DNA of 64,000 bases, taken from NCBI RefSeq assembly GCF_024168645.1, contig NZ_JALJWF010000001.1, forward strand, positions 4,653,501-4,717,500, given 5' to 3'. The DNA comes from Pseudomonas sp. GGS8. GTDB taxonomy: Bacteria > Pseudomonadota > Gammaproteobacteria > Pseudomonadales > Pseudomonadaceae. Position numbers and translations under genes: made by a program. The notes under the pieces are model-generated. The model saw nothing but the letters and a program-made list of their open reading frames with translations, was not told the origin of the DNA and did not search any database. Shown here in pieces: positions 34,084 through 59,546 of the stretch. Position 1 is the stretch's first letter. Each line of letters opens with the position of its first letter.

Positions 34084-34115
34084 ATATTTAATGGATGAAT
34101 CAAAGGGAACGGATT

Positions 34116-37100
34116 ATGTCTTTTAGTAAGTCAACACTTGAATACCTTCAGTCTATGGCAGACGAAGCAAACGAAATATCGAAGGCCTTGGGGGTGGACG
34201 ACGTAACTGCTCAGGGCATGCTGGGAGCCATAGGAGAAGAGTATGAATCCCTAGGGTTTAAAGATGTTGTGCAGGCTATAACAGTGTCAGGCGCTAGTCA
34301 TGAAGAGCTTAAGGCTAATTATGAAAGTGTCTTGGCTGATCCAGATTTGCTTAAAGAGATTGTAGGTGCAAATGATGTGCGTCAAGGAGTTATAAAATAT
34401 TTTAATCCGGTTTTGAATGATGTTGGGCCCGGCAATATAAAGATACTGACCGCTATGAAATTGTTGGGGGATTATATGGAGAGTAATCCTGGTTCGGATC
34501 CGCTTGGTATAAAAAATTATGCTCAGGATTATGGGCGATTAGTTAAAGATCTTGGGGATGAGAAAAATACGCTGAGTCTAAAGTTTGCCGGCCTTATGCT
34601 GGTGGAGGCAAATGAATTTTATTCGGTTAAGGCTGCTTCCGCATGGGCTGGATACGATCAGGACACCAAAGATGCGATTTTAATTACTTATTATAATAAT
34701 GGTGAAGAGTGGGCTGTCGGGAAAGCTGAACAGTTTTTTTCAGAGTTTCCGGATGCTCAATATGCTCCAAAGCCAGGCGGAGGTACCAGCGGTGGACAGG
34801 TCTATCTTGAGAACGCCGAACAAATAAAAAAATATATAGGTGCCACGCCTATACCCTCCGTCAGCGATAACTTCTTCAACCTCAATATCAATACCGCTGG
34901 TGCGGTGGTTGAGAAAGGCGCAACAGATCACGAGCAAAGTGCCGCACAAGTGGCAGATGGATTGGTCCGCAATGGTGGTGGTTGGGCAATCACCTATGAT
35001 CCAAACAAACTGAACGTCAATCAGATACAGGGTAGTTGGGTCAACAACACCTTTGCTGCTGCGGCGACGCAGATTCTCGCCGATGGTTATCGGCCGGGTA
35101 ACGTGAACACCGTCAAGGAAGTCTTCGATTTCAGCCTGCGCGGTGCCAGCAACGGGATTTCATTCGGCAGTAACTCAGGGCAGGCAGGCGCATGGCTCAA
35201 CTCCGGTAATGCCCAGGCGCGCCTGACGCTTCCGACTGACCCGCTGGTGCTCGATCTCAATGGTGACGGCGTTCGGTTGACTGACTATCTCAGCAACCCG
35301 GTGCTCTTCGACGTCGATAATGATGGCGGCAGCCTCGAGGAAACTGGCTGGGTCAGTGCGCAGGACGGAATCGTCGTTGTCGATCGCAACAACAATGGCA
35401 AGATCGACAACATCAGCGAAACCCTTTCCGAGTACTTCGGCGGGGCAGCTGGCACCGGCGGAAACACGGGAGAAAAGCCTTTTGCCAATGGTTTTGCCGC
35501 GCTGAAAAGCCTCGACAGCAATGGCGACAACCTTTTTGATAATCGTGATGACGCTTGGTCCAGCGTGAAGGTGTGGGTCGACGCGAATCACGACGGTAAA
35601 AACTGGGTAGATAGCAACGGCAACAATGCTGTCGATGCCGGGGAGGTCAGCGAAGTTCGCACCTTGAGCGAGCTTGGCATTACCAGCATCAATCTCGCCA
35701 ACACCGTGCAAAACGGCGAAGTCCGCGATGGCAACGAAGTGTTGGCCCGTGGCACGTTCGTGCAAAACGGTATCAGTAAGGAAGCGATTGCGGCCAATTT
35801 CCTGGCCAACCCCAACGGGCATACATTCAGCGCCAGTGGCAATGGCACTGTCGTTTCGACTCAGGGCGGGGGCGAGGTAGCCCCGGTCAGCGCTTATGCC
35901 TCCTCCTCTACGTCAGGGGAAACCATTGATGTCGCGCAAAAGGGCGTCAGCAATGCCAGTGGTGGTGTGGGTCGCGACGTCCTGCTTGGCGATGCCGGAA
36001 GTAACTGGTTGGCCGGCGGGCAAGGCAGTGACAGCTTCCAGGCGGGTGCCGGGGACGACGTGCTGTTGATCGATGCCGATGATCTGGCGGTCAATATCCA
36101 CGGCGGTGCCGGTACCGATATTGTTCAGGTGATTGGCGACCGAGGTGTCACCCTCAATCTGACCGAAGCTGAAATCGAGATCGCGCAGGGCGGCCGGGGT
36201 AATGATGTTTTTATCGCGGGCGGACACAGCACAGTCTATATGCGCGGTGGTGACGGTGATGATGTCCTGGTGGGTGGGTCAGCCAACGATGCCTTATCCG
36301 GCGAGGATGGAGAAGACTTCATCAGCGGCGGTGCCGGTAATGATGTGCTGCGCGGTCACCGCGGGCGAGATCAGGTCCTGGGCGGGGAAGGCAACGATCT
36401 GATTGATGGCGGTCTGGATGACGATAATCTGAGTGGCGGCGCCGGCGATGATGTTCTGATCGGCGGCGAGGGTGACGATACGATCAGTGGCGGTGACGGT
36501 GTAGACGTCATCGAGTTGTCCGGCGATTTTAGCGATTACCGCATTACCCGGACCGCCGAAGGCGTCTGGATCAGCGATACCGTGGCGGGCCGCGATGGTA
36601 CCGACTTCTTGCAGAACGTCGAGAAAGCCAACTTCAAGAACCTGAAGCTGGTGGAGATCCCGACCGCGACCAGCGAGGGCATGGAGAATGCGCTGCTGGT
36701 CAAGGATGTCCTGGGCAAGGACAAGAACGGTGTGGCGTTCGAGCGCACCAGCGCGCACTTGATCGGCAAGGAACAACTGCTGCAGAACGACATCGATTGG
36801 CAGCATGACGCGTTGCACATCACGGGCTTGTTCGATGTGGTGGGCGGAACGGCGGTCGTGACCCAGGCCGGTGACGTGCTGTTCACGCCGGACGCCACCT
36901 TCACCGGCATCATGGGTTTCAAGTACACCGTCGCCGATGCCAAAGGCAACGAGGCCAGTACGATCGTCAACATGGGCACCGGCGAAAGCGCGACGATGCG
37001 TGCCGCTGTCTATCTGAAGACATCGGACCTGCCCGACGATCCGCTGGTGACTGATCAGTGGTACCTGTCCCAGGCGAACATCCTGCCGGTCTGGAAAGAC

Positions 37101-40100
37101 TACACCGGCAAAGGTGTCAGGATCGCCGAGATCGAGACCAACAGTCCGTTCGGCACCACCAAGGAGATCCTGGATTACCGGCACGCCGACCTGAAGGACA
37201 ACATCGACCAGAACTGGCTGGCCAACGCCACGCCGGGGCAGATGGCGGGTGAGGGCAGCGGTGGCAAGTTCAGCGACCACGCGACCCTCGTCGCCGGGGT
37301 GATGGTCGCCGCCCGCAATGGCGAGGGCAGTGTCGGTGTCGCCTACGACGCCACGGTGGCCGGTTACTGGGTCAATAAAGACGACTTCAGCAACATGTCC
37401 CACATGTATGAATACGATGTGGTGAACCACAGCTGGGGCAGCAACTTTCACTTCGACCTGAAGTTCAGCCCCACCGAGCTGGGAACGTTGCCGACGGCCT
37501 ATTACCAGGCCATCGACGAAGGACGCCACGGTTTGGGCACGGTGATTGTCACGGCGGGCGGCAACGACCGGGAGAAGGGCGGTAACACCAACTACTCGAA
37601 CGTCTCCAACACCCGCAGCAGCATCGTGGTCGGCGCGATCAACGCCACCACCGACCTGGGTGCGTTGCAGCTGGGCGGCAAGCCATTTTCCAGCCCTGGC
37701 GCCAGCATCCTGGTCAGCGCACCAGGCTCGAACGTCACGTCGACCTCACGCCTGGTACAGAACGACAACGGGTCCACGTTCGGTGGCGACACCAGCGTTT
37801 CCCAAGGCACCAGCTTTGCGGCCCCCATCGTCTCCGGCATCGTGGCCTTGATGTTGGAAGCCAATCCGGAGCTGGGTTATCGCGATGTGCAGCAGATCCT
37901 GGCGATTTCGGCCCGCAAGGTGAACGACCCCACGACCTCGTGGCAGACCAACGGTAGCCAGAACTGGAACGGCGGCGGCATGCACGTCAGCCACGACTAC
38001 GGTTATGGCGAAGTCGATGCCCGGGCCGCCGTGCGTTTGGCGGAAACCTGGAACATCCAGCAGACGTTGGGTAATGAGTTGCGCCTGACAAACCCGCTGG
38101 AATCCGGCGTGCTCAATCGCGCGATTACCGACGGACAGGGCGCCGGCATCAGCCATTCGCTGACGATGGGAGCGGTCGACATTTTGGCCGAGCATGTCGA
38201 GGTCAAGGTCAACCTGAGCCATGCGCGGCCAGGGGACCTGATTCTCAAGTTGATCTCGCCGTCGGGCACCGAATCCATCCTGATGAATCGTCCGGGCAAA
38301 GCCCCGGGCAGCGCGGCGACGGATCGGGGGAATGCCGATTTTGACGGTCAGAACACCTTGAACTACGTCTTTGGCACGGCTCTGCTGCGTGGCGAAGCGG
38401 TGCAAGGGAACTGGACGCTGCAAGTGATCGACAGTGTGACCGGCGATACCGGGACGCTCAATAGCTGGAGCCTGAACGTCTACGGCAAGGGCGATACGAT
38501 TGACGACCAGTATGTGTACACCAACGAGTACGCCCAACTGGCCGCTTCGGGCGGGCGCAATGCGCTTAACGACACCGACGGTGGTCAGGACACGATCAAC
38601 GCGGCGGCGATCTCCAGTGCCAGTGTGATCGATTTGTCTAAAGGCGAGGCCACCCTGGCCGGCGCTCGCTTGGCGATCACCAATGCCGCGCAGATCGAGC
38701 ACCTGATCGGGGGTGAATTCGCCGACACGCTGATTGGTAACGCTGCGGACAACCATCTCTCCGGTGGTCGTGGTGACGATGTGTTGTCGGGTGGTGCCGG
38801 CGTCGATACGCTCATCGGCGGCAAGGGCAGCGACACCTTGACCGGCGGTGCTGACACGGATTATTTCGTGATCGACAAGGCCGCGGGCGACGTCGACACC
38901 GTCACTGATTTTGTGATCGGTACTGACCGAATCGTTCTGTCCGGCTTTGATGACGAGGTCTATACGGCGGCGACCATTACCCAACAAGGCGCCGACACTC
39001 GGTTGAGCCTGGCGGATGGGCAAGTCCTGCTACTCAAGAACGTTCAGTCCGAAGGCCTGACGCTAAAGAACTTCGTTCACATCCCGGAAGGTGTGCGCCT
39101 GAGTCGGTTGGAGCAGGCTTCTGGCTACGGTTTCGGGCTCAGCGGTGCCAATACCGAGCGCAATCTGCCGGACGTGACCGGTAGTTTCCTGTATTGGGCC
39201 CACGATGGTGGCGAGCGCGTATTTGGCGGCACCGGTGCCGATACGATCGTAGGTGGCCAGGGTGACGATGTACTGGTTGGAGAGTCTTCGACGGCCTCGA
39301 CCGTGGGTGGCAATGACATTATCAGCGGAGGCGAAGGCTACGATGTCATCCGGGGTGGCGCTGGCGATGATGTATTGCGTGGCGACGTCGGGCTGGATTA
39401 CCTGGGCGGTGACGCCGGCAACGATGTCCTCTACCTCGAAGGTGACCAGGCCATCGAGGACCATGCCTTCACCACCGTGCTGTCACCGAACATCAACCTG
39501 AGTGGCGCCGCGACGCACACCGGTGCCTCCGTCGCGGGCGGTGCCGGTAATGATCGTTTTGTGCTGGTCGAAGACCTTCTGGCCAGTGCCTCGCAGGGGA
39601 TCATGGGCAACCTGATCGATGACTTCGAAGTCGCCAATGCCAACGAGAAGATCGATCTTTCGCAGATTCGCGCGGTACACAGTTTTGCTGACTTGAACTT
39701 CAGCAACGTGACCGTCGACGGCGAGGTCTATCTGCGGGTCTGGCTGGGCACGATGGCCAGCGGTACTCAGTACATCACGCTTAAAGGCGTGACTGCTGGT
39801 CAGCTCTCTGCGGCCAATTTCATTTTCGGCCAAGCGGTCACGCAGCCCAAGGTGCTGCTGAGCGGTACCGGCGCGAATGATCTGTTGATCGGCGATGCCG
39901 GAGGCAACACGCTCGACGGGGGTGCAGGCGCCGATGTCCTTGAAGGGCGGATGGGGGACGATACCTACATCGTCGATAACGTGGGTGATGTCATCAAGGA
40001 AGTCGTAGGCGGTGGCTATGACGTGGTCAAGTCCAGTGTCAGCCATGTCCTGGCCAGTGAGGTGGAGTCTTTGCAGTTACTGGGCAGTGCCGCCATCAAT

Positions 40101-43100
40101 GGGACCGGTAACGAGCTCTCCAACCGTTTGGTTGGCAATAGCGCAAACAACATTCTCAATGGCGCCGGCGGCTCTGATGTGATGATCGGCGGCCTGGGCG
40201 ACGATACCTATGGCGTGGATGACGGTTCCGACCGGATCGTCGAATCCGAAGGCGCGGGCACCGATACCGTCAATTCCTCGGTCTCCTTTACGCTGGCCAA
40301 TCACCTGGAAAACCTGAGCCTGACCGGTAACGCGGCGATCAATGCCACGGGCAACGCGGCCAACAATGTCCTGCGTGGCAACGTTGCCGATAACCGTCTC
40401 GACGGCGCCCAAGGCGCTGACCGGATGATCGGTGGCCTGGGCAACGACACGTACTTCGTGGATAACGCCGGTGACGCCGTCGTGGAAGACCTCAACGGCG
40501 GCAATGACAAGGTGATTTCCACCCTCGACTACACCTTGGCGGCCAATGTCGAGGCATTGACCTTGTCCGGTCCGGCCTTGAATGCCAGCGGTAACGAGCT
40601 GGGGAACGAACTGATCGGCAACGAACGCAATAACCGCTTGTATGGGGCTGCGGGCGATGACTTCCTGCAAGGTGGCAGGGGCGACGATCGCTACGTATTC
40701 GGTGTCGGCCATGGCCAGGATCACATCAGTGAAGATCTGGAAGCGGCTGGCGGCATTGACACCATCGTGTTCGAAGCGGGTATCAAGGAAAGCGATGTCG
40801 CTGTCGACCATTCCGCCCAGGGCATGGTGCTGCGCCTGAATGACGGCCAGCAAATCATCTCCGGCTGGACGGCCGCTCGCGGTCATAGCGTCGAGCGTAT
40901 CGAGTTCGCCAACGGGACGGTCTGGAACACCGCGACGCTGTCGACCCAGGCCAATCGGGCGCCAACCGTATCGACCGCGATTGTCGACCAGAAGGTCGCC
41001 GAGGACAGCGCTTTCGTCCTGACGCTGGCGGCCAATGCCTTTGTCGACGCGGATACGGGCGACGCTCTCCAACTGAGCGCAACCCTCGTCGACGGCAAGC
41101 CATTGCCTGCCTGGTTGAGTTTCGACGCCAAGACGCGCACGTTCAGCGGTACGCCTGGCAATGACGCTGTGGGTAATGTATCTATCCGGGTCACGGCAAC
41201 CGACAAGGCGGGGTTGTCGGTCAGCGATAGCTTTGAAGTCCAAGTCAGTAATACCAACGATGCACCGGTCCTGGTCAAGGCCATTGCCGACCAATCCGTC
41301 GTCGAGGGAGCGCCTTTGACGTTCGCGCTGCCGGCAACCACGTTCACGGATATCGATGCCGGGGACCGGCTGAGCTACCAGGCGACGTTGGCCAACGGTT
41401 CGGCGCTTCCTGCGTGGCTGGTATTCGATGCGGCCACTCGCACCTTCAGCGGCACGCCCGCGCAGGCCGGAACCGTCTCGGTCAAGGTTTCAGCAGTGGA
41501 CCTGTCTGCTGCCGTGGCCAGTGACGTGTTCGACATCGTGGTCAATGCCCAAGCCGTCACCAACGGCACCGCGGCTGCCGATAGCCTCAACGGCGATGCC
41601 TCGGGCAACGTCATCAACGGGCTGGGCGGTGATGACTCGATTTACGGTCGGGAAGGTAACGATGTGCTGAACGGCGGTGATGGCGCCGACTGGATCTCCG
41701 GTGGCGACGGCAACGACACCTTGGACGGTGGCGCCGGCAATGACAGCCTGCGTGGCGATTCTGGTAATGACACCTATCGATTCTACCGAGGCATGGGCCA
41801 GGACAGCGTCACCGATTTTGACTCGACGGTCGGAAACGTCGACACCATCAAGGTCGCGGCCGATATTGCTCCGGCAGATGTGATCGTCAGCCGGGACCAG
41901 ACTTACCTCACGCTGGCGATCAAAGGCACGACCGATAAATTGTCGATCACCTTCTTCAGTAATTCGAATTACATCGTGGAGCGCGTCGAGTTCGCCGATG
42001 GAACAGTCTGGGGAGTTGACGCCCTCAAGCAAATGACCAAAGGCGTCGCCAGCAGCGCTGCCGATACGTTGTTTGGCGACATCGGGGCCGATGTACTCGA
42101 TGGGCTTGAGGGGGATGACAAGGTCTACGGTGAGGCAGGTGACGACCGACTGGAAGGCGGCGCCGGTAACGACTCGCTGGGCGGGGGGGATGGCAATGAC
42201 ATCCTCAATGGTGGCGCGGGTAACGATTATCTGAGTGGCGATTACGGCAATGACCGCCTCGATGGTGGTCTCGGTAACGATCGATTGTCGGGGGGCGCAG
42301 GCAACGATACCTATATGTTTTATCGGGGTATGGGCCAGGACACTATCAGCGAGTTCGACTCGATGGCTGGAAACAGCGATACGATCAAGGTCGCCGCCGA
42401 CATCAATCCCGGCGATGTCATCGTCAAGCGTGAGGGGAGCGATGTTTACCTCGCCATCAAGAACACCACTGACCGGATGACCATCTACAGCTACACCGAC
42501 GCCAACTATCAGGTTGAACGCGTCGAGTTCGTAGACGGCACCGTCTGGTCCGTCAGTGATCTCAAGCGCCTGTCGGTAGAGGTCGCCACCAATGGCGCCG
42601 ATACGTTGATCGGTGACGAAGCCAACGATCGGTTGGACGGGCTTGACGGTGATGACAAATTGTCTGGCCTGGCCGGCAACGATGTGCTCAACGGTGGAGC
42701 GGGTCAGGATACGCTTGACGGTGGGATGGGGCTGGATACGCTGGACGGCGGGGCGGGCAATGACTTGCTGTACGGCGGCTCCGGCAACGACACCTATCTC
42801 TTCCAGCGTGGTGGTGGCCAGGACCTGATTTCCGATCGCGACTGGACCAGGGGCAATCTTGACGTGATCAAGTTGGCCCAAGGGATCAGCCCAGGCGACA
42901 TCAAGGTTGCTCGCGTGGGCTACAACCTGGAACTGACGATCCTCGGTACCACCGACAAGCTGACCGTCAACGAATGGTTCCTTTCCACGGACTCGCAGGT
43001 TGAACAGGTTCAGTTCGCCGACGGCACGCTCTGGGACGCCGCAACCCTGACGACCCTGTCCAAGGGCGTGGCGAGTGAGGGCAATGATGTCCTGCAAGGC

Positions 43101-44210
43101 GACGAGTCCAGCGCCGATATCCTCAATGGACTGGGTGGTGATGACTCGCTCTACGGATTGTCGGGCAATGACACACTGAACGGTGGCGCCGGCAGCGACA
43201 AGCTCTTTGGTGGCGCGGGCATGGACACGCTCGATGGTGGCGCCGGCAATGATTCCCTTTATGGGGATGCCGGCAACGATACCTACCAGTTTTACCGCGG
43301 GGTCGGGCAGGATTGGATAAGTGACTACGACTCTTCGGTGGGTAACCTGGATACGATCAAGGTAGGGGCAGGCCTCAAGCCGTCCGATATCCAACTCAGT
43401 CGTGATACCTACGACCTTTTCGTGGGCATTGCAGGAACGACCGACAAGCTGACCGCTTCCGGCTGGTTCTCGAACAGCGCGTATCGGATCGAACAGATCC
43501 AGTTCGACGACGGAACCCTCTGGAGTGCCGACACCATCAAGAGCATGACCAAGGGCACGGCAACTTCGGGTAGCGATGCACTGTTCGGCGAGGATGCGCT
43601 GGCTGACTCGTTAAGTGGCCTTGACGGCAATGACAAACTTTACGGGTTGGGCGGTAACGACACGCTGTCGGGTGGCAACGGTGCCGATGAACTGAGCGGT
43701 GGCGAAGGCTCCGACACCTTGCTGGGTGGGGCGGGTGATGACCGGTTGTCTGGTGATACAGGCTCCGACACCCTGATAGGTGGAACAGGCAACGATCAGT
43801 TGAGTGGGGATCGCGGTAATGATCTTTATCGATTCGAGCGTGGGGATGGTCAGGATGATATTGACGATTTCGACCCGGACGCCAACACCGATGTGTTGCA
43901 ATTCGGTGCCGGTATTTCCGCCAATCAACTCTGGTTCAGTAAAAATGGCTGGGACCTGGAAGTGAGTGTCATTGGCACCGCCGATAAAGTGACGATCTCC
44001 AAATGGTCGTTCTGGGGGCCGGGTAGCTGGGAGAAGGCCCAGCACATCGAGCAGTTCCGCACCGCCGATGGCAAAGTCCTGTTGGAAAACCAGGTCGATC
44101 AACTGGTAGGCGCCATGGCCGCTTTCGCGCCACCGGCACCGGGTGAGACCTCATTACCACAGAACTATCAAACGTCGTTGAATGCAGTGATTGCCAGCAA
44201 CTGGCAATAG
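34116..44210 (+). CDS. Giant RTX protein with embedded kexin-like protease and P domain
   Basis: 3364 residues, the likely cargo of the upstream type I system. In order: AT-rich unknown N-terminus (1–370); Asp/Asn-rich EF-hand-like calcium segment (LDLNGDGVRL, VVDRNNNGKIDN; 375–540); RTX nonapeptides (about 690–800); a cadherin-like unit (880–945); a subtilisin/kexin domain (about 970–1310) with His 1055 (DHATLVAG), Asn near 1150 (TAGGN) and Ser 1233 (GTSFAAP); a P domain (about 1320–1455); further RTX and M10-C-like repeats; two He_PIG/Ig-like domains (near 2285–2480); then five roughly 160-residue modules (GGxGxDxL repeats, NDTYxFYRGMGQD, GTTDKL, VERVEFADGTxW). The protease Asp position reads IAEIET, Glu 1007 instead of Asp. 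The uncleaved C-terminus should carry the secretion signal. ATG 34116 has GGGAACGGA upstream; ATG 34095 is weaker. Calcium outside the cell would fold it. Adhesin, toxin or protease are all possible. Confidence 0.92.
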   Translation: MSFSKSTLEYLQSMADEANEISKALGVDDVTAQGMLGAIGEEYESLGFKDVVQAITVSGASHEELKANYESVLADPDLLKEIVGANDVRQGVIKYFNPVLNDVGPGNIKILTAMKLLGDYMESNPGSDPLGIKNYAQDYGRLVKDLGDEKNTLSLKFAGLMLVEANEFYSVKAASAWAGYDQDTKDAILITYYNNGEEWAVGKAEQFFSEFPDAQYAPKPGGGTSGGQVYLENAEQIKKYIGATPIPSVSDNFFNLNINTAGAVVEKGATDHEQSAAQVADGLVRNGGGWAITYDPNKLNVNQIQGSWVNNTFAAAATQILADGYRPGNVNTVKEVFDFSLRGASNGISFGSNSGQAGAWLNSGNAQARLTLPTDPLVLDLNGDGVRLTDYLSNPVLFDVDNDGGSLEETGWVSAQDGIVVVDRNNNGKIDNISETLSEYFGGAAGTGGNTGEKPFANGFAALKSLDSNGDNLFDNRDDAWSSVKVWVDANHDGKNWVDSNGNNAVDAGEVSEVRTLSELGITSINLANTVQNGEVRDGNEVLARGTFVQNGISKEAIAANFLANPNGHTFSASGNGTVVSTQGGGEVAPVSAYASSSTSGETIDVAQKGVSNASGGVGRDVLLGDAGSNWLAGGQGSDSFQAGAGDDVLLIDADDLAVNIHGGAGTDIVQVIGDRGVTLNLTEAEIEIAQGGRGNDVFIAGGHSTVYMRGGDGDDVLVGGSANDALSGEDGEDFISGGAGNDVLRGHRGRDQVLGGEGNDLIDGGLDDDNLSGGAGDDVLIGGEGDDTISGGDGVDVIELSGDFSDYRITRTAEGVWISDTVAGRDGTDFLQNVEKANFKNLKLVEIPTATSEGMENALLVKDVLGKDKNGVAFERTSAHLIGKEQLLQNDIDWQHDALHITGLFDVVGGTAVVTQAGDVLFTPDATFTGIMGFKYTVADAKGNEASTIVNMGTGESATMRAAVYLKTSDLPDDPLVTDQWYLSQANILPVWKDYTGKGVRIAEIETNSPFGTTKEILDYRHADLKDNIDQNWLANATPGQMAGEGSGGKFSDHATLVAGVMVAARNGEGSVGVAYDATVAGYWVNKDDFSNMSHMYEYDVVNHSWGSNFHFDLKFSPTELGTLPTAYYQAIDEGRHGLGTVIVTAGGNDREKGGNTNYSNVSNTRSSIVVGAINATTDLGALQLGGKPFSSPGASILVSAPGSNVTSTSRLVQNDNGSTFGGDTSVSQGTSFAAPIVSGIVALMLEANPELGYRDVQQILAISARKVNDPTTSWQTNGSQNWNGGGMHVSHDYGYGEVDARAAVRLAETWNIQQTLGNELRLTNPLESGVLNRAITDGQGAGISHSLTMGAVDILAEHVEVKVNLSHARPGDLILKLISPSGTESILMNRPGKAPGSAATDRGNADFDGQNTLNYVFGTALLRGEAVQGNWTLQVIDSVTGDTGTLNSWSLNVYGKGDTIDDQYVYTNEYAQLAASGGRNALNDTDGGQDTINAAAISSASVIDLSKGEATLAGARLAITNAAQIEHLIGGEFADTLIGNAADNHLSGGRGDDVLSGGAGVDTLIGGKGSDTLTGGADTDYFVIDKAAGDVDTVTDFVIGTDRIVLSGFDDEVYTAATITQQGADTRLSLADGQVLLLKNVQSEGLTLKNFVHIPEGVRLSRLEQASGYGFGLSGANTERNLPDVTGSFLYWAHDGGERVFGGTGADTIVGGQGDDVLVGESSTASTVGGNDIISGGEGYDVIRGGAGDDVLRGDVGLDYLGGDAGNDVLYLEGDQAIEDHAFTTVLSPNINLSGAATHTGASVAGGAGNDRFVLVEDLLASASQGIMGNLIDDFEVANANEKIDLSQIRAVHSFADLNFSNVTVDGEVYLRVWLGTMASGTQYITLKGVTAGQLSAANFIFGQAVTQPKVLLSGTGANDLLIGDAGGNTLDGGAGADVLEGRMGDDTYIVDNVGDVIKEVVGGGYDVVKSSVSHVLASEVESLQLLGSAAINGTGNELSNRLVGNSANNILNGAGGSDVMIGGLGDDTYGVDDGSDRIVESEGAGTDTVNSSVSFTLANHLENLSLTGNAAINATGNAANNVLRGNVADNRLDGAQGADRMIGGLGNDTYFVDNAGDAVVEDLNGGNDKVISTLDYTLAANVEALTLSGPALNASGNELGNELIGNERNNRLYGAAGDDFLQGGRGDDRYVFGVGHGQDHISEDLEAAGGIDTIVFEAGIKESDVAVDHSAQGMVLRLNDGQQIISGWTAARGHSVERIEFANGTVWNTATLSTQANRAPTVSTAIVDQKVAEDSAFVLTLAANAFVDADTGDALQLSATLVDGKPLPAWLSFDAKTRTFSGTPGNDAVGNVSIRVTATDKAGLSVSDSFEVQVSNTNDAPVLVKAIADQSVVEGAPLTFALPATTFTDIDAGDRLSYQATLANGSALPAWLVFDAATRTFSGTPAQAGTVSVKVSAVDLSAAVASDVFDIVVNAQAVTNGTAAADSLNGDASGNVINGLGGDDSIYGREGNDVLNGGDGADWISGGDGNDTLDGGAGNDSLRGDSGNDTYRFYRGMGQDSVTDFDSTVGNVDTIKVAADIAPADVIVSRDQTYLTLAIKGTTDKLSITFFSNSNYIVERVEFADGTVWGVDALKQMTKGVASSAADTLFGDIGADVLDGLEGDDKVYGEAGDDRLEGGAGNDSLGGGDGNDILNGGAGNDYLSGDYGNDRLDGGLGNDRLSGGAGNDTYMFYRGMGQDTISEFDSMAGNSDTIKVAADINPGDVIVKREGSDVYLAIKNTTDRMTIYSYTDANYQVERVEFVDGTVWSVSDLKRLSVEVATNGADTLIGDEANDRLDGLDGDDKLSGLAGNDVLNGGAGQDTLDGGMGLDTLDGGAGNDLLYGGSGNDTYLFQRGGGQDLISDRDWTRGNLDVIKLAQGISPGDIKVARVGYNLELTILGTTDKLTVNEWFLSTDSQVEQVQFADGTLWDAATLTTLSKGVASEGNDVLQGDESSADILNGLGGDDSLYGLSGNDTLNGGAGSDKLFGGAGMDTLDGGAGNDSLYGDAGNDTYQFYRGVGQDWISDYDSSVGNLDTIKVGAGLKPSDIQLSRDTYDLFVGIAGTTDKLTASGWFSNSAYRIEQIQFDDGTLWSADTIKSMTKGTATSGSDALFGEDALADSLSGLDGNDKLYGLGGNDTLSGGNGADELSGGEGSDTLLGGAGDDRLSGDTGSDTLIGGTGNDQLSGDRGNDLYRFERGDGQDDIDDFDPDANTDVLQFGAGISANQLWFSKNGWDLEVSVIGTADKVTISKWSFWGPGSWEKAQHIEQFRTADGKVLLENQVDQLVGAMAAFAPPAPGETSLPQNYQTSLNAVIASNWQ

Positions 44211-52556: not shown

Positions 52557-53243
52557 ATGGTATTGATTATGGGAGGGGTTTTTCCAGCTTTTCTTAAGCA
52601 GGTCTGCCCGTCTCACAAGGCGTCACGGCATGAGTTATTCGACTATCTCGCCTTGGAAGCGAATGAGCAACAGCTTTGCTACTTTTTTAAAGGCGATAGT
52701 GCTTTAAATTTGCACTTTTTGACATCTTAGCTATGGCTCTTCACGGCTCGGAGTTAAGTGCTAGAGGGGAAAACGCACGAATTTGTGGGATGAGATCGGG
52801 CATGGCAGCGATCACCTGGCACAGGTTAATTTATATAAGGATTTATTGGTGCGAAGAGGTATTCCATTACCGGAAGATCACAGTGTCACTGGTAAGACTT
52901 GGCTGGGTTTAATACTTTCATGCTGGGTGCTGTAAATCGTCAGCACTATTATAAGCTGATTGGCTTGTTGACGATGACGGAGTTGCTGGGCCCTTCTCAA
53001 TATGAAAAGCTTGCTCAAGGTTGTGAGCGACTGGGGCTGCGCAAGCAGGATACTTCTTATTATCGAGAACATATTCAGATCGATGTTGTTCATGCTCGGG
53101 GGTGGCTGGACAATGTGGTGACGCCTTTGGCTACGCGCAAGGCCGAAGCCCTTGATGAAATCTATTTTGGCGCGCAGTTGAGATTGGATGCCTGTGCGGC
53201 CTATTATGATGACCTGCTGAAAGTAATAAAGTCGCTGGCTTAG
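52557..53243 (+). pseudogene. Heme-oxygenase-like diiron oxidase (HDO), frameshifted
   Basis: Joining three frames gives one protein of about 225 residues: GGVFPAFLKQVCPSHKASRH, LAMALHGSELSARGE, DEIGHGSDHLAQVNLYKDLL, FNTFMLGAVNRQHYYKLIGL and YYREHIQIDVVHARGWLDNV. E-x-x-H (DEIGH) and D-x-x-H (DVVH) are the iron-ligand pattern of the iron-containing redox enzyme/HDO family (UndA, SznF and relatives), which often tailor natural products. Shifts are visible at about 52,725 (a T5 run where T6 is needed), 52,790 and 52,892. The last 345 bases are open from 52899. Either a pseudogene or sequencing errors in homopolymers. Confidence 0.7.
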
Positions 53244-53306
53244 ACGTCAAAAAACATAAGCCAGTGTTTGCAGCTTTAGGATGTATATTTTGCCAAGGAG
53301 TATGGT

Positions 53307-54173
53307 GTGGTGAGTTCTTTAGATAAAACAGTTGAGTGTGTAAAAGTGTCACATGCCTTTATTGATGTCGTCGCAAATAGCGTCGATGGCTTGGTCAAGA
53401 AAGGTATTGTTAATATCCTCGAACATGGTCATGCTATTTCTTCGAGAGCGGGTGGTGCTCGTCAGGCATATGGAGTTAATTATATTCTTACAAATCCTCT
53501 TAATCGAATTCACTCGCTAAGAAAGGGCGCAAAACGCTATTTGTGTAGAGAGTTGTTAGCTTATTTTAGTGGTAGTCTAAATGCCCAAGAAGGATTGGCC
53601 AAGGCCTCAAATTTCTGGATGACATTGGTTGATGAAGAGGGCAATGTAAACTCCAATTACGGTTATTATGTTTTTCACGAGCCTGTGTTAGAGCATGAGA
53701 ATCAGTACAATTGGATTATTAATATGTTAATGGCAAACCCTGATTCACGGCGCGCAATCATAAATATAAATCAAAATTACCACAAGTCGGATACTAAAGA
53801 TTTCCCTTGTACGGTTGGTATGCAGTTTTTTATCAAGGACCGTACGTTGTTCTGTGAAACAATTTCCCGTAGCACCGATGTGATTACGGGATTGCCATAC
53901 GATATGGGTTTTTTCTCATTTGTTCACGAGCTGGTTTTCGCCGACTTAGTCGAACGAGGCATGTCGGAATTGCGGCTTGGCTCGACCATCATGAAGACTA
54001 CGTTTACACAAATTTATGATAACGCCGTCGAAAAGGCTAACGACGCAATGCTGAACGTGGGTGTGATAGAGCAGATGCCAACCATACAGTCTGCTATTAC
54101 CACACTGGCTGATATTTATGGGCGCACTCAAAAAACTGAAGTTGTCCGGTGGGTTCATGAAAATGCGGAGTGA
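53307..54173 (+). CDS. Thymidylate-synthase-fold enzyme, probable (d)CMP hydroxymethylase
   Basis: 288 residues from GTG 53307 (AAGGAG seven bases upstream). It aligns with E. coli ThyA at the active site: Glu 82 (RELLAYFSG), Trp 104, Tyr 118, the phosphate-binding Arg pair 148–149, nucleophile Cys 168 (DFPCTV) and Arg 188/Asp 191 (SRSTD). The spacing from Cys 168 to residue 199 is 31, as from Cys146 to Asn177 in ThyA, but residue 199 is Asp (GLPYD). Asn-to-Asp here is the known switch to cytosine nucleotides in T4 dCMP hydroxymethylase and in MilA of mildiomycin synthesis. Predicted: adds a one-carbon unit from methylene-tetrahydrofolate to C5 of CMP or dCMP. His207 of ThyA is replaced by Gln, leaving sugar preference open. 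It overlaps the next gene. Confidence 0.85.
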   Translation: MVSSLDKTVECVKVSHAFIDVVANSVDGLVKKGIVNILEHGHAISSRAGGARQAYGVNYILTNPLNRIHSLRKGAKRYLCRELLAYFSGSLNAQEGLAKASNFWMTLVDEEGNVNSNYGYYVFHEPVLEHENQYNWIINMLMANPDSRRAIININQNYHKSDTKDFPCTVGMQFFIKDRTLFCETISRSTDVITGLPYDMGFFSFVHELVFADLVERGMSELRLGSTIMKTTFTQIYDNAVEKANDAMLNVGVIEQMPTIQSAITTLADIYGRTQKTEVVRWVHENAE

Positions 54174-54720
54174 ATTACCATTTTTTGTCCTGGCGACCAA
54201 AAATATCGCTAAGATCAATGCTTTGAATGATGTGTGTGGTGACTTGTTTGGATCCTTTACTTTGATACCTTTTGACGCAGACTCAGGTGTATCAGAGACC
54301 CCTACTACCGATGAGGAAGCAATTCGTGGATGCCTTGGTAGACTTGAGAGTGTGCAGAGGCATTCTAATGAGCGGGCCGACTATTATGTCGCCCTTGAAG
54401 GATTAGTTGAACACCTCTCTTTCGGCAGCTTCGTGTATGGTTGGGCCGCGGTGAAAGATCGGCACACTGGTGATGTTTTCTATGGCTGCAGTGGCAAGGT
54501 CATGCTCCCGCCTGAAGTTGTTGCCAGGATAAGGCCCGAATTGAAACTCTCTGCAATCATGCAAGAACTTTATCCCGAAACGGCTGGTGACATGGATTTG
54601 TTAGGCTGTAATGGGATAATTACGGCAGGAATGTATAGTAGGGTAGACGAATTTAAAACTGCGCTGCGATGTGCATTGGGCGCTGCTTTGGCCTCAGATG
54701 TTGGCGTGATTCGGCAATGA
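54157..54720 (+). CDS. YjjX-type non-canonical NTP phosphatase
   Basis: 187 residues from ATG 54157, overlapping the preceding stop by 17 bases. Family features are FFVLATKNIAKINAL (substrate loop), YYVALEGLVEH with the acidic residue, GWAAVKDRHTG and DMDLLGCNGIITAGMYSR. YjjX enzymes dephosphorylate inosine/xanthosine triphosphate. In this cluster a role in removing the triphosphate of a toxic nucleoside (self-protection), or as a biosynthetic nucleotidase, is inferred. Confidence 0.82.
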   Translation: MKMRSELPFFVLATKNIAKINALNDVCGDLFGSFTLIPFDADSGVSETPTTDEEAIRGCLGRLESVQRHSNERADYYVALEGLVEHLSFGSFVYGWAAVKDRHTGDVFYGCSGKVMLPPEVVARIRPELKLSAIMQELYPETAGDMDLLGCNGIITAGMYSRVDEFKTALRCALGAALASDVGVIRQ

Positions 54721-55397
54721 TCCGGTGTGTTCTATTTGATATCGACGATACGCTGCTCAACCATCAGCAAGGACATCTGTACGCAATGGATTGGTTGGAG
54801 AGTTTCTTGGCCAGCCATGATTACGCTAGCGGCAACGATGAGTTCGAGCGCTTTCACCAGTTTTACAATGAGATGAACCAGAGACTATGGTCTCAATTTG
54901 AAGGTGGTGGTCTAACCGTTGAGAGCTTACTAAGCCAACGTTTTCAGCATGTGTTTGATTGGTTTGGCGTTCGCCGGACTCATCGCGATGAAATTGAATC
55001 AACGTTCATATGCAAGTACGCAGAGTCCTGTGTTCCGACCGGCCCTTGGCTGAATATTTTGAAATATTTTCGCCAGCGTGGAATTATACTTGGTGTATGC
55101 AGTAATGGCGCTGAGCGAGTCCAAAGATTGAAACTCGAGGCAAGTCGGTTAGCACCCTATTTTGATTATTTTTTCTTTGGTTTTTGCGCCCCTCAGTGCA
55201 AACCCCACGAAAGCTTTTATCAACGTGTGAAGCGTGAATTGGATGTCGCCTTTGAGGACATTGTGATGGTCGGCGATAGTCTAGAGAATGATGTCTTACC
55301 CTGCCAAAAATTGGGGATTAAAGTGCATCATTTTTCAAAGCGAGCCGACTTTAGTAAGTCAATCGCGTCGTTGATGGAGATTGTAGATGCTGGATGA
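54717..55397 (+). CDS. HAD-family phosphatase, nucleotidase-like
   Basis: 226 residues; the ATG overlaps the previous stop as ATGA. HAD motif I is FDIDDTLLNH (Asp nucleophile and Asp+2), motif II VCSNG, a Lys near KPHESFY, and motif IV VGDSLENDV. A cap domain lies between motifs I and II as in YjjG-type 5'-nucleotidases. Probably removes the 5'-phosphate of the cluster's nucleotide intermediate. Substrate inferred from neighbours only. Confidence 0.82.
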   Translation: MIRCVLFDIDDTLLNHQQGHLYAMDWLESFLASHDYASGNDEFERFHQFYNEMNQRLWSQFEGGGLTVESLLSQRFQHVFDWFGVRRTHRDEIESTFICKYAESCVPTGPWLNILKYFRQRGIILGVCSNGAERVQRLKLEASRLAPYFDYFFFGFCAPQCKPHESFYQRVKRELDVAFEDIVMVGDSLENDVLPCQKLGIKVHHFSKRADFSKSIASLMEIVDAG

Positions 55398-56679
55398 AGT
55401 TATTTATAAAGGCGTGAGGTATCTGTGCCCTGATACTCATCGGTTGGCCCATGGCAGTCTTCACGTAAAAGGATCCACGATTTTCGCGATCTACTCGCCG
55501 AGCTGTCCGCTTCCGGATGGTGTGCGAATTGCTGATTGCTCAAATTTCATCTGTATGCCGGGCTTGGTTAACGCGCATTTACACCCGAGCAAAGAATTAT
55601 ATGGCGGGCTGATGGAGTATTCTCCCATTAGTGCCGTGCTGGATGCGGTACATAAAAACAACGAATTGGAAACTCGTGAGGTGCAGGGTGTCGCTACACT
55701 ATACAGCCTGATGAAAGAGATTCGTAAAGGGGTTACTTGTGTTGGAGTGTTCACCAGTCGGCCTGAAGTCGATATTGATGCCTGCAAGAAACTCGGCGTA
55801 CGGGCAGCAATCAATTATTGCCAAAGCAACCAGTGGATTGGCGCGGGGGCCCGCCCAGAATTTAAACCTATTCATAGTATTGCCGAGAATTTTGTATCGA
55901 CTAAGCAACAATACCAGTCTGACACTCTAAGTGTAATACCCTCTACCGCTTCCGAACTTTCCGCCAACGAAGAGCTATTTAAATATCTTCATGCGGAAGC
56001 AAAAAAAGCTGGTTCGGTATTTTCTCTTCACCTTCATGAGGGCGCAACACAAGTTGCGCTTTTTAAGGAGGTATTCGGTATGACGGCAGTCGAGTATCTG
56101 CATGCTTTAGAGATATTGGATGAGTCTACGACGTTGATACATGCTTCTTGTGTGTCACCCGCTGACCTCGCTATCCTTCAGCAGAGTCGTTGTAATATCA
56201 TTCACTGCCCCGTAAGTAATAGTTATGTCGGAGCCGGTACACTGCCTTTGGCATCACTGATGGAAGGTCGATCGGTCGGTCTCGGTACTGATGCAGCAAT
56301 GGTAAATCCAATAGGCGACATTACATTTGATGCGCTATTCACTGTTTATCATCATGGCCCAGATAACCTAGATAAAAAGCCAAGCGCACGTGAAACTCTA
56401 AAAATGCTGACTTCCTCAGGAGCTCGCGCGCTTGGATTGAAGGACGTAGGTGAGTTGCGCGTAGGCTTTCTTGCCGATATTGCCTTCTACGATAGTGTCA
56501 ACTTTTCTGATCATTATTTGGATAATCCAATTTCCTTTTTGAACATGATCCACAAGGAAAATCCTGTGCGGGTCATGGTTGGTGGTGCCGTAATTTTTGA
56601 GTTCGGTGAGTTTGTGTGCCACTCACTGGTGGACGTGCGATCCACTTTTTCCAAATTCAAGGAGCATGTAGTCGGATGA
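55387..56679 (+). CDS. Amidohydrolase, cytosine/adenosine-deaminase-like
   Basis: 430 residues. All mononuclear metal ligands of the deaminase/chlorohydrolase branch are visible: NAHLHPSKE (His-x-His), HLHEGAT (His), LIHASCV (His) and GTDAAM (Asp). An N-terminal beta subdomain ends in CMPGLVNAHLH, and the C-terminal part is LRVGFLADIAFYD. Such enzymes deaminate bases, nucleosides or S-adenosylhomocysteine; here a modified cytosine or adenine derivative is the inferred substrate. It overlaps the upstream gene by 11 bases and the downstream gene by ATGA. Confidence 0.85.
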   Translation: MLDEVIYKGVRYLCPDTHRLAHGSLHVKGSTIFAIYSPSCPLPDGVRIADCSNFICMPGLVNAHLHPSKELYGGLMEYSPISAVLDAVHKNNELETREVQGVATLYSLMKEIRKGVTCVGVFTSRPEVDIDACKKLGVRAAINYCQSNQWIGAGARPEFKPIHSIAENFVSTKQQYQSDTLSVIPSTASELSANEELFKYLHAEAKKAGSVFSLHLHEGATQVALFKEVFGMTAVEYLHALEILDESTTLIHASCVSPADLAILQQSRCNIIHCPVSNSYVGAGTLPLASLMEGRSVGLGTDAAMVNPIGDITFDALFTVYHHGPDNLDKKPSARETLKMLTSSGARALGLKDVGELRVGFLADIAFYDSVNFSDHYLDNPISFLNMIHKENPVRVMVGGAVIFEFGEFVCHSLVDVRSTFSKFKEHVVG

Positions 56680-57305
56680 AAAATATAGCTTTTTTATTTT
56701 CAGGCCGTGGATCATTAATTGACGCGGTAAAAAATGGGATCGAAGAGGCAGAACACGCTGCTAGGCTTGCATTGGTCATCACCAATAACGCTAGTTTCGA
56801 TGCTGGGGCCGATACCCGATTTTCCGATGTGAAGGTTAATAAAGTAATTCATTCGGATTATCCGAGCCGTGCGGAATTCGAACGGGAAATCGCAATATTG
56901 CTGGAGGGCGCACAGATCGATGTGATCGTCTTGGGAGGCTTTCGCAGGATATTTTCGTCTGAGTTTGTTAGTCGGTTTGGTAGTAGAACCATCAATACAC
57001 ATCCATCTATCCTGCCGGCTTTTCCGGGCGACAAGGCCCAGCGCCGGGCTCTGGAGGCAGGTGTAAAGATCACAGGGGCCACGGTACACTTTATCAATGA
57101 TGAAGTGGACGCAGGACCTATTATTGATCAGGGCACAGTTAGAATCACCTCACAAATGACTGAGGCGATGCTACGCGAGGAAATCATTTGCGTAGAACAG
57201 AATATTATTTGTACAGCTGTTGCGGGCCTCATTGATGAGCAGATTTTTGTTGAGCAGGGCCGAGTCGTGAACAAAGGAGTGCGCAATGGGCTTCCAGAGT
57301 CGTAA
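56676..57305 (+). CDS. PurN-like formyltransferase
   Basis: 209 residues; ATG 56676 overlaps the amidohydrolase stop. Formyltransferase signature: NTHPSILPAFPG with catalytic Asn and His, followed by GATVHFINDEVDAGPIIDQG with the catalytic Asp. Similar in size to glycinamide-ribonucleotide formyltransferase, but the N-terminus (AFLFSGRGSLIDAVKNG) differs from the usual GNGSNLQ form. It would transfer a formyl group from 10-formyl-tetrahydrofolate to an amine. Its place in the cluster argues for a tailoring step instead of purine synthesis. Confidence 0.82.
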   Translation: MKNIAFLFSGRGSLIDAVKNGIEEAEHAARLALVITNNASFDAGADTRFSDVKVNKVIHSDYPSRAEFEREIAILLEGAQIDVIVLGGFRRIFSSEFVSRFGSRTINTHPSILPAFPGDKAQRRALEAGVKITGATVHFINDEVDAGPIIDQGTVRITSQMTEAMLREEIICVEQNIICTAVAGLIDEQIFVEQGRVVNKGVRNGLPES

Positions 57306-58494
57306 TTTCTTGCCCGCAGTGGTCGTCGCTTCAATGCTATTTGTGGCCATCACTAGCCTAGGGATATCTGTTGCTGTACTTCCACCCTATATCAACAAGG
57401 TGTTAGGGCTGCCCGGTAGCTATGTCGGTTTTATCGTGGTGATGGAATCAGTCGCGACGTTGTTATCCCGGCCGTACGCAGGCCGATTTTCTGATCGGCA
57501 TGGTCCAAAGCGAGCAATGGTCACTGGTCTACTGCTCCTCTTCGCTGCCGGTACAATATGCTTCATTCTGACTGACCAGAGTGTATTGTCTGCTATGCCT
57601 GTCTTTGCCCTTGTGTGTTTTAGCCGGTTATTAATGGGCGTGGGAGAAAGCTTGGTGTTTACCAGTAGTGGAACTTGGCCAATCGGTTTGATAGGGCGTG
57701 AGCATGCTGGGAAAGTTATGTCCTGGGTCGGTATCGGTATGTTCCTCGGACTCGCGATTGGCAATTATATCGGAGCATATTTATTTCGTGAGAACTCTGT
57801 ATTGCTATCAATGTTGATCATGTCATGCCTCCCGTTTTTTGGTGTCATGGTGGTGTTGTTTGTCGAAGATGCTAAGGTACCCGGCGAGCCGGTGAGTATC
57901 TCGACTTGGACGGCAATACGTGAAATATGGCGACCTGGCTCAGGTTTTGCGCTGGGTAACGTTGGTTATGCATCAATAACTTCGTTTTTGTTACTGTTTT
58001 TGATGGAGAAAGGATGGCAGACAGATGCGCCGATGATTTTGTCGTTATTTGGTGTAGGTTATGTCGTCGCGCGACTAATGCTCGGAAAAAAGGCGGATGC
58101 CTATGGATTAAAAGCTGTATGGATATCATTGATTATCGAATCACTAGGCCTTTTGCTGGTGGCCACTGCGCCCCAGGTTGATGTAGTGATGTTAGGAGCG
58201 TTTATGACTGGTCTCGGATTGTCGATGGTCTATCCGTTATTGGCATTACCGGCCATTAAGAGTTTACCGGACACTAATATCGGGCTAGCGCTTAGTACGT
58301 ACGAAGCGTGTTTCGATATTGGCATTCTTCTGGCTGGCGGCGTAGGAGGGCTCTGCGTGAGTCACTTCGGATATGCATCAGTGTTTTATTTTGCGTCAGG
58401 TTGCGCTGTTGTTGCCATGTTTAGTTCTTGGCTCGCCTACCGCGAGCTGCAACGCGCGAGCGTTGACGTGAACCTGATTAAGTTACAGTCATAA
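57286..58494 (+). CDS. MFS transporter, candidate product exporter
   Basis: 402 residues, about 12 membrane helices, with the MFS loop 2–3 motif GRFSDRHGPKRAM. The ATG lies 20 bases inside the preceding gene. Resembles drug or metabolite efflux MFS proteins. Export of the cluster's product is inferred from position. Confidence 0.88.
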   Translation: MGFQSRNFLPAVVVASMLFVAITSLGISVAVLPPYINKVLGLPGSYVGFIVVMESVATLLSRPYAGRFSDRHGPKRAMVTGLLLLFAAGTICFILTDQSVLSAMPVFALVCFSRLLMGVGESLVFTSSGTWPIGLIGREHAGKVMSWVGIGMFLGLAIGNYIGAYLFRENSVLLSMLIMSCLPFFGVMVVLFVEDAKVPGEPVSISTWTAIREIWRPGSGFALGNVGYASITSFLLLFLMEKGWQTDAPMILSLFGVGYVVARLMLGKKADAYGLKAVWISLIIESLGLLLVATAPQVDVVMLGAFMTGLGLSMVYPLLALPAIKSLPDTNIGLALSTYEACFDIGILLAGGVGGLCVSHFGYASVFYFASGCAVVAMFSSWLAYRELQRASVDVNLIKLQS

Positions 58495-58547
58495 GTATGT
58501 ATTAGTTTTTTTTGCATAAGGAGCAGTGGGCATTGAAGGAGTATTTT

Positions 58548-59546
58548 GTGAGGGTATGGTTGTTTTTCGTGATGCTATGTCTGTCTTGTGGAGCATTAGC
58601 AGAATCGCGAACCAATTTAATCATCGATACTGATCCTGGTGCCGACGACATGATCGCGCTTTTGGTGGCTTTCGCGTCGCCGGACAAATTGAACTTGCTA
58701 GGTGTGACGACTGTAGCGGGGAACGTGCGGATCGATAAAACTTCACGCAACGCCCGGATTGCAAGAGAGTGGGCGTCTCGTGGAGACGTCCCCATTTACT
58801 CGGGCGCCGCACGTCCTTTGGTTCGCTCTCCGGTGTATGCGGAAAGCGTCCATGGCCCCGAGGGAATTTCCGGGGTAAAGGTGTTCGAGCCTAAACAACC
58901 CCTAGCGGGTGATGACGCTGTCTCGTTTATTATTACGACACTACGGGCGGCGCCAGCGCATTCGATTACACTAGCATTATTAGGGCCGGAAACTAATCTC
59001 GCGCTTGCTTTAAAACAAGCGCCTGATATTGTCAAAGGGATCAAGGAAGTTGTAGTAATGGGTGGAGCGCACTTTCAGGGCGGCAATGTAACACCTACTG
59101 CGGAATTCAACATGTTTGCGGATGCAGAAGCCGCGAAATATGTTCTAGATAGTGGCGTGCAAATCACTTATTTACCTATTGACGTCACTCATAAATTATT
59201 GACAAGCGAGGGACGAATCTCAGCTTTAGATCAGTTGGGTAATCAAGCGGGACACCACGTGGCCTCCATTCTTCGCGGCTACATCCAGAGCTACGTTGAG
59301 CGCTATGGTTTGTCGGGCGGGCCGGTCCACGATGCTACTGTGATTGCTTATCTGTTAAATCGTGAGCTCTTTCGTGGCCGAGAGATCTACCTTTCAATCG
59401 ACACGCGAGAGGGCTTGACATATGGCCAGACGATAGCAGACTGGTATGGGACACTGAACAAAAAACCAGATGCATTTTGGGTTGAGGACGGCGATGCTGA
59501 CGAGGTGTTCAAATTGATTACTTCGCGTATATCGAAGCTCAATTAA
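58548..59546 (+). CDS. Periplasmic nucleoside hydrolase
   Basis: 332 residues from GTG 58548, chosen because AAGGAG sits six bases upstream and a signal peptide follows (WLFFVMLCLSCGALA-ES); a TTG at 58512 would lack an ordinary leader. Nucleoside-hydrolase motifs are NLIIDTDPGADDMIAL (calcium-binding Asp cluster), VVMGGAH, AEFNMFADAEAA and GGPVHDATVIAYLL (His acid). It cleaves the N-glycosidic bond of ribonucleosides to base and ribose. Most bacterial homologues are cytoplasmic, so the signal peptide is notable: it could release a free base from an exported nucleoside or detoxify external nucleosides. Last gene of the operon; no terminator seen. Confidence 0.9.
   Translation: MRVWLFFVMLCLSCGALAESRTNLIIDTDPGADDMIALLVAFASPDKLNLLGVTTVAGNVRIDKTSRNARIAREWASRGDVPIYSGAARPLVRSPVYAESVHGPEGISGVKVFEPKQPLAGDDAVSFIITTLRAAPAHSITLALLGPETNLALALKQAPDIVKGIKEVVVMGGAHFQGGNVTPTAEFNMFADAEAAKYVLDSGVQITYLPIDVTHKLLTSEGRISALDQLGNQAGHHVASILRGYIQSYVERYGLSGGPVHDATVIAYLLNRELFRGREIYLSIDTREGLTYGQTIADWYGTLNKKPDAFWVEDGDADEVFKLITSRISKLN

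Follow-up and report, generated by a model that had tools for sequence, protein, structure and literature searches.

A rare, mobile operon of Pseudomonas sp. GGS8 with a predicted cytidylate 5-hydroxymethylase and a putative pathway to an acyl-capped pyrimidine nucleoside or base

In this study, we describe an operon of six genes in Pseudomonas sp. GGS8 that is conserved, horizontally mobile and rare. It lies at positions 53307-58494 of a 64,000-nucleotide stretch of contig NZ_JALJWF010000001.1 (contig positions 4,653,501 to 4,717,500, forward strand; this whole stretch is called the window, and all coordinates refer to it), within a genome of 6.72 Mb assembled as a single contig. Its first gene encodes a thymidylate synthase (TS)-like protein which, judged by its residues, carries the signature of a cytidylate hydroxymethylase and not that of a thymidylate synthase. 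We favor, with moderate confidence, the reading that the operon makes and exports a 5-hydroxymethylpyrimidine nucleoside or base with an acyl cap, probably an antimetabolite. Its entry enzyme belongs to the type known from mildiomycin and bacimethrin, while no description of the gene set, the remaining pathway or its host range turned up in the full-text literature searched, which mostly lacks subscription journals and hence gives no proof of absence. The six genes, all on the forward strand, are as follows.

53307..54173, + strand: TS-like cytidylate 5-hydroxymethylase candidate, core gene (GTG start; Thymidylat_synt, 8e-22)
54163..54720, + strand: DUF84/YjjX-type nucleoside triphosphatase (NTPase), core gene (NTPase_I-T, PF01931, 2.5e-34)
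54717..55397, + strand: HAD-family phosphatase, pyrimidine nucleotidase-like, optional gene (PF00702, 8e-19)
55387..56679, + strand: amidohydrolase of predicted aminohydrolase (deaminase) type, core gene (Amidohydro_1, PF01979, 8e-32)
56676..57305, + strand: PurN-like formyltransferase, possible cap gene (Formyl_trans_N, PF00551, 4e-40)
57286..58494, + strand: MFS transporter, probably an exporter, core gene (MFS_1, PF07690, 1e-44)

Results and discussion

The operon and its island

The original prediction, made from the letters of the window, called seven intact and mostly overlapping genes here, the seventh being a nucleoside hydrolase to which we return below. This was borne out, as 53307-59546 holds seven open reading frames (ORFs), all of them open, with Pfam families that agree with the calls made from motifs. 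With gene starts chosen to fit the alignment of relatives (for the NTPase, the start giving an 11-base overlap common to them), the first six genes overlap in a chain by 11, 4, 11, 4 and 20 bases, and a gap of 17 bases separates the MFS gene from the nucleoside hydrolase. When starts in the relatives are taken as the first start codon of the ORF or from the annotation of the record, the 11-base overlap of TS-like gene and NTPase recurs in five of six relatives compared, the 4-base overlap of amidohydrolase and formyltransferase in all six, and the 20-base overlap of formyltransferase and MFS gene in three. The GC content per gene is 42-50%, against 57% in window bases 1-50000. Upstream of a relic of an oxidase gene that precedes the operon there are IS3 fragments and a truncated tyrosine-integrase N-terminus, a fragment of an RHS gene lies downstream of the gene set, and the TS-like gene found no match (E 1e-20) in any of the 248 other genomes drawn from the same genus. 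This absence, together with the mobile-element flanks, fits an island, so that the AT-rich island operon proposed earlier stands.

The entry enzyme

A search with the TS-like protein gave 286 homologues at E <= 1e-10, of which 120 were listed, and the residue counts that follow are over these 120. An Asp three residues before the catalytic Cys (D164 and C167) is found in 120/120. PMC6400193 gives such an Asp as a feature of cytidylate hydroxymethylases, and the genome's own ThyA has Leu at this position. Equally invariant are the water-positioning Ser-x-Tyr (S115 and Y117, aligned with the NSNYG of the phage T4 enzyme) and the cytosine-specifying D198, which aligns with T4 Asp179 and is replaced by Asn in the genome's ThyA. 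The best sequence-profile match among solved structures is likewise the T4 deoxycytidine monophosphate (dCMP) hydroxymethylase gp42 (1.7e-21), whose Asp145, Ser94-x-Tyr96, Asp179, Ser169 and Arg123 all have equivalents in the window protein. The structural model matches MilA best by VIA-align, over residues 19-287; MilA also leads the Foldseek rows shown by TM-score over the model (0.73), and as in MilA, the modeled C-terminal helices extend beyond the aligned range of the T4 enzyme. An ordinary thymidylate synthase was considered and rejected, given a score of 67.9 bits for the best ThyA model against a cut-off of 327, Asp at both diagnostic positions and the ThyA that the genome encodes separately.

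The sugar site is where the protein departs from its relatives. The His that meets the sugar hydroxyl (His207 in TS, His216 in the T4 enzyme and in MilA), present in the genome's ThyA, is Gln234 in 120/120 homologues, which as a sequence feature would count against an identical mode of sugar binding, though not against the hydroxymethylase reaction. Furthermore, Lys133 and Ala176 favor cytidine monophosphate (CMP) over dCMP in MilA, according to PMC5175136, and their equivalents, as read through alignment with the T4 enzyme and E. coli TS, are R147 and S188 in all 120. With the CMP-favoring residues of MilA absent, CMP as the substrate, at which the original prediction had hinted, is not supported, while the residues do support its hydroxymethylase assignment; given sugar-site residues of the dCMP type combined with Gln for His, we leave the substrate as CMP or dCMP.

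These differences also set the operon apart from the known pathways that begin in the same way. In the mildiomycin cluster of Streptomyces rimofaciens, MilA is a TS-fold cytidylate 5-hydroxymethylase as well, it serves as the entry step of an antibiotic cluster and uses an Asp for cytosine. However, Arg147, Ser188 and Gln234 stand in the window protein in place of Lys133, Ala176 and His216, its partners are a DUF84 protein, an amidohydrolase and a formyltransferase, and the window genes include no N-glycosidase except for the neighboring nucleoside hydrolase. From gp42 the window protein differs in belonging to a bacterial operon that includes a transporter gene, in having Gln for His216 and in its extra C-terminal helices. 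Bacimethrin is made by a small cluster around the TS-like hydroxymethylase BcmA, found in Clostridium botulinum, Streptomyces albus and Microcystis, and is an exported antimetabolite (PMC12345177). By analogy, the product could be a thiamin antivitamin, since 5-hydroxymethylcytosine is a 2-oxo analogue of the pyrimidine of thiamin, which would here be formylated and not methylated, and bacimethrin is made from CMP via 5-hydroxymethyl-CMP and 5-hydroxymethylcytosine by a TS-like enzyme (PMC12345177, PMC5175136). We regard this as improbable, as neither the cluster genes of the window nor those of the annotated plasmid clusters include a methyltransferase, ThiD2, thiaminase, ABC transporter or N-glycosidase, and the two CMP residues common to MilA and BcmA are Arg and Ser here.

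Distribution, linkage and mobility

Among the 120 listed homologues of the TS-like protein, sources span Burkholderia, Pantoea, Pectobacterium, Salmonella, Xenorhabdus, Vibrio, Haemophilus, Bacillus, Lysinibacillus and Rhizobium, the closest relative among the matches listed being that of Burkholderia thailandensis (71%). Scanning one genome of each species gave 16 loci. Five of these, in Trabulsiella, Edwardsiella, Erwinia, Dickeya and Ewingella, share the order of the window: TS-like gene, NTPase, in some cases HAD phosphatase, amidohydrolase, formyltransferase and MFS gene. Three belong to Thermoactinomycetaceae (the family was checked for two) and keep the TS-like gene, NTPase and amidohydrolase, to which ATP-grasp ligases and a LOG-type enzyme are added, without a formyltransferase. 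In the remaining eight (L010-L017), scanning found no further gene of the cluster; these do not enter the cluster counts, two of them being short contigs and one (L017) a match of 33 residues only. Plasmid records with the TS-like gene carry the NTPase, amidohydrolase and MFS genes in 4/4 cases and the formyltransferase in 3/4; on the fourth, a Salmonella plasmid, an ORF for a carbamoyltransferase lies beside the TS-like gene instead. Two versions of the cluster occur in E. coli, both on plasmid records, the first in 1 of 5426 complete genomes (5.7 kb) and the second in 2 of 5426, one of them typed IncK2/Z.

The genes form a linked set. TS-like gene, NTPase and amidohydrolase adjoin in 12/12 further cluster loci read, and the formyltransferase joins them in 8/12, which speaks against the counter-case that these are unlinked housekeeping genes. 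Over 7-11 loci, the pairwise divergences of five of the genes correlate with rho 0.79-0.95 in all ten pairs (Mantel p <= 0.003), with the truncated TS-like gene of Dickeya, L009 and L043 excluded, and with kinship of the loci within Enterobacterales adding to the correlation. For 19 of 58 amidohydrolase clusters, the longest contig is exactly equal in size to that of one of 119 TS clusters. At the same time the cassette is sparse: random draws of 249 genomes from the genus (E 1e-20) and 369 from the class (E 1e-60) returned it in its own genome only, draws of 295, 246 and 149 genomes around three Enterobacterales in the central genome only (the second and third draws repeating the first, at least for the 20 entries listed), and a draw around Thermoactinomyces in 2 of 398 genomes, both among the loci found before. 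In Edwardsiella anguillarum (L003) the cassette lies between direct repeats of 751 bp (8164-8914 and 14707-15457) that are 98.4% alike and each hold a DJ-1/PfpI gene, as expected of a recent insertion.

Sparse and mobile distribution on plasmids and islands, and a phage dCMP hydroxymethylase as best solved relative by profile, would also suit an intracellular antiviral system, in which a modified nucleotide or deoxynucleotide poisons phage replication. We consider this very unlikely: a conserved MFS transporter and cap-type enzymes would rather be expected where a small molecule is exported, and none of the seven window proteins matches any PADLOC model at E 0.001, on which ground a known anti-phage defence system was also rejected.

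A distant group of TS-like genes, from Dependentiae, other metagenome-assembled genomes and a viral contig, has a NUDIX hydrolase as next gene in 5 of 8 loci scanned (L010, L011, L012, L015 and L018), which suggests a stand-alone pair of hydroxymethylase and NTPase. Some of these distant proteins (P0074, P0077 and P0079) have N-terminal stretches that by eye resemble signal peptides, which is odd for a folate-dependent nucleotide enzyme.

The proposed pathway

We propose that the TS-fold enzyme would transfer a 5-hydroxymethyl group onto CMP or dCMP with methylene-tetrahydrofolate as donor. The NTPase, aligned with those of 10 cluster loci, has VC0702 and YjjX as nearest solved structures, and scores 72.1 bits with the YjjX inosine/xanthosine triphosphatase model, short of the curated cut-off of 175. 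It may draw on the triphosphate pool to supply the monophosphate, or alternatively destroy a toxic triphosphate of the product. The nucleoside would then be released by the HAD phosphatase, for which the best NCBIfam model is the YjjG/YfnB noncanonical pyrimidine nucleotidase (4e-26, below the cut-off). This gene was found in two cluster loci (L004 and L006), is shortened in a third (L005) and was not found in the other eight scanned, where a host enzyme might take its place.

Deamination of the heterocycle would be the presumed next step. Enzymes of the aminohydrolase subgroup of the amidohydrolase superfamily bind metal through HxH, two further His and an Asp, and use a catalytic Glu. The amidohydrolase matches this deaminase-type pattern by sequence, with H64, H66, H215, E218, H252 and D302 invariant in all 26 proteins aligned (chosen from 58 matches), and comparison of the modeled fold places it nearest to deaminases of nucleosides and nucleobases and to triazine hydrolases. 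A formyl cap could then be added by the PurN-like transferase, a carbamoyl or aminoacyl cap being possible in other members; N-formylation in particular we infer. The transferase passes the PurN model (159.9 bits, cut-off 150.1), as does another copy in the genome (253.9 bits), and it keeps the NTHPS and VDAGP or VDDGP motifs. Its glycine-rich loop reads GRGSL or GRGTL in 8/8 proteins aligned, where the two solved PurN proteins shown have GRGSN and GTGSN, and thus lacks the Asn of the GxGSN loop. In PurN this Asn is located at the site of the substrate phosphate. The MFS protein, finally, would export the product, most likely as an antimetabolite against competitors. Its nearest NCBIfam subfamily is PRK05122 (352.8 bits, cut-off 374), it has no match among solved structures at 1e-5, and a homologue forms the 3' end of all eight proteobacterial cluster loci scanned.

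NTPase, nucleotidase, deaminase and nucleoside hydrolase are all typical of salvage and house-cleaning, which raises the alternative that the operon salvages or detoxifies odd pyrimidine nucleotides, e.g. cytosine nucleotides that are hydroxymethylated or damaged; the MFS protein would then be an importer or a waste pump, and no antibiotic would be made. We find this doubtful, because the predicted task of the conserved first gene is to attach a one-carbon unit to cytidylate, the transferase or ligase genes added in different lineages suggest synthesis rather than breakdown, and the distribution is very sparse and mobile.

We must however take into account several points that weigh against synthesis and export of an acyl-capped nucleoside or base. 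The product and the enzyme activities are predicted from the genes. By Foldseek E-value an ordinary thymidylate synthase comes first (1.7e-17), with MilA fourth. Deamination removes the 4-amino group and leaves no obvious amine to formylate, hence at least one assignment may be wrong, and the formyltransferase might instead be a deformylase or use a different substrate. Export by the MFS protein is our inference, and the compound could also be a signal or a nutrient. The carbamoyltransferase was seen in one locus, where its ORF lacks roughly the first 143 of the 346 positions in the N-terminal-domain model and a 92-residue ORF upstream has no match, so that it may be truncated. In Dickeya oryzae (L005, 10001-10744 and 11287-11802), a stop lies inside the TS-like gene and the HAD gene is shortened, indicating that the set also decays.

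If the synthesis and export of such a compound proves true, a cassette of five or six genes makes an undescribed nucleoside antibiotic with a cap enzyme that differs between lineages, and it moves on plasmids of E. coli and Salmonella, and into the window genome and several other Enterobacterales. Nucleoside antibiotics are best known from actinomycetes. The 5-hydroxymethylcytosine carbamoyltransferase described in PMC8670742, whose activity was demonstrated on DNA and RNA, offers a parallel for the carbamoyl cap suggested by the Salmonella plasmid, although a small-molecule substrate would be expected here. A bolder version, which we put forward tentatively and think rather unlikely as a whole, is that of a plasmid and chromosomal cassette family for acyl-capped 5-hydroxymethyl-deoxycytidine or -deoxyuridine antimetabolites. 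Its fixed core would be a dCMP-type hydroxymethylase with Gln for His, a DUF84 supplier resembling a deoxycytidine triphosphatase, a deaminase and an exporter, while the cap (formyl, carbamoyl or aminoacyl) would be exchanged between lineages. Its products would be non-peptide, microcin-like nucleoside antibiotics of Enterobacterales, widespread but overlooked. In this hydroxymethylase, which comes from a bacterium and not from a phage and combines dCMP-type residues with an altered sugar site, the choice between CMP and dCMP can be put to a direct test, and the small number of genes allows the pathway to be tested with purified enzymes.

Neighboring genes

Two further genes had been counted as part of the pathway.

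52899..53243, + strand: haem-oxygenase-like diiron oxidase relic, C-terminal piece (Haem_oxygenas_2, PF14518, 1.5e-23)
58512..59546, + strand: nucleoside hydrolase, neighbor outside the conserved set (IU_nuc_hydro, PF01156, 8e-89)

The idea of a single pathway operon holds for the first six genes, which are conserved and linked, and is not borne out for these two. That the oxidase gene is broken was correctly recognized: a one-frame translation of 52557-53246 meets seven stops, and the domain match is limited to the C-terminal piece. As the first gene of the pathway it is not supported, with no match in 8/8 cluster genomes in a search without a positive control, and with relatives in 4 of 36 plasmid records read (48-55% identical, 339-353 residues) that all lie outside this cluster.

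The nucleoside hydrolase, whose N-terminus looks signal-like by eye, found no match in the 11 cluster loci scanned and has a second copy elsewhere in the genome with 60% identity, for which reasons it is not supported as a pathway gene or as a conserved member. One copy is present in 17 of 24 relatives of the same genus, and its best relatives, where named, are nearly all Pseudomonas. Among 60 of its 120 listed matches, one longest-contig size (5587) coincides with the TS list, which we take as chance, the data sources being different. Possibly it was added to the transcript locally.

The four plasmid-borne relatives of the oxidase relic are iron-containing redox enzymes (L027-L030). In three of the four loci, a DMT or LysE transporter lies no more than two genes away, on plasmids of Salmonella, Klebsiella and Rahnella, while that of Paraburkholderia has neither within this distance; these pairs of redox enzyme and transporter are possibly another small mobile biosynthetic module. 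Elsewhere in the window, 34095-44210 holds an ORF of 3371 residues in which, by eye, a subtilase-like part and many calcium-binding repeats of haemolysin type can be made out.

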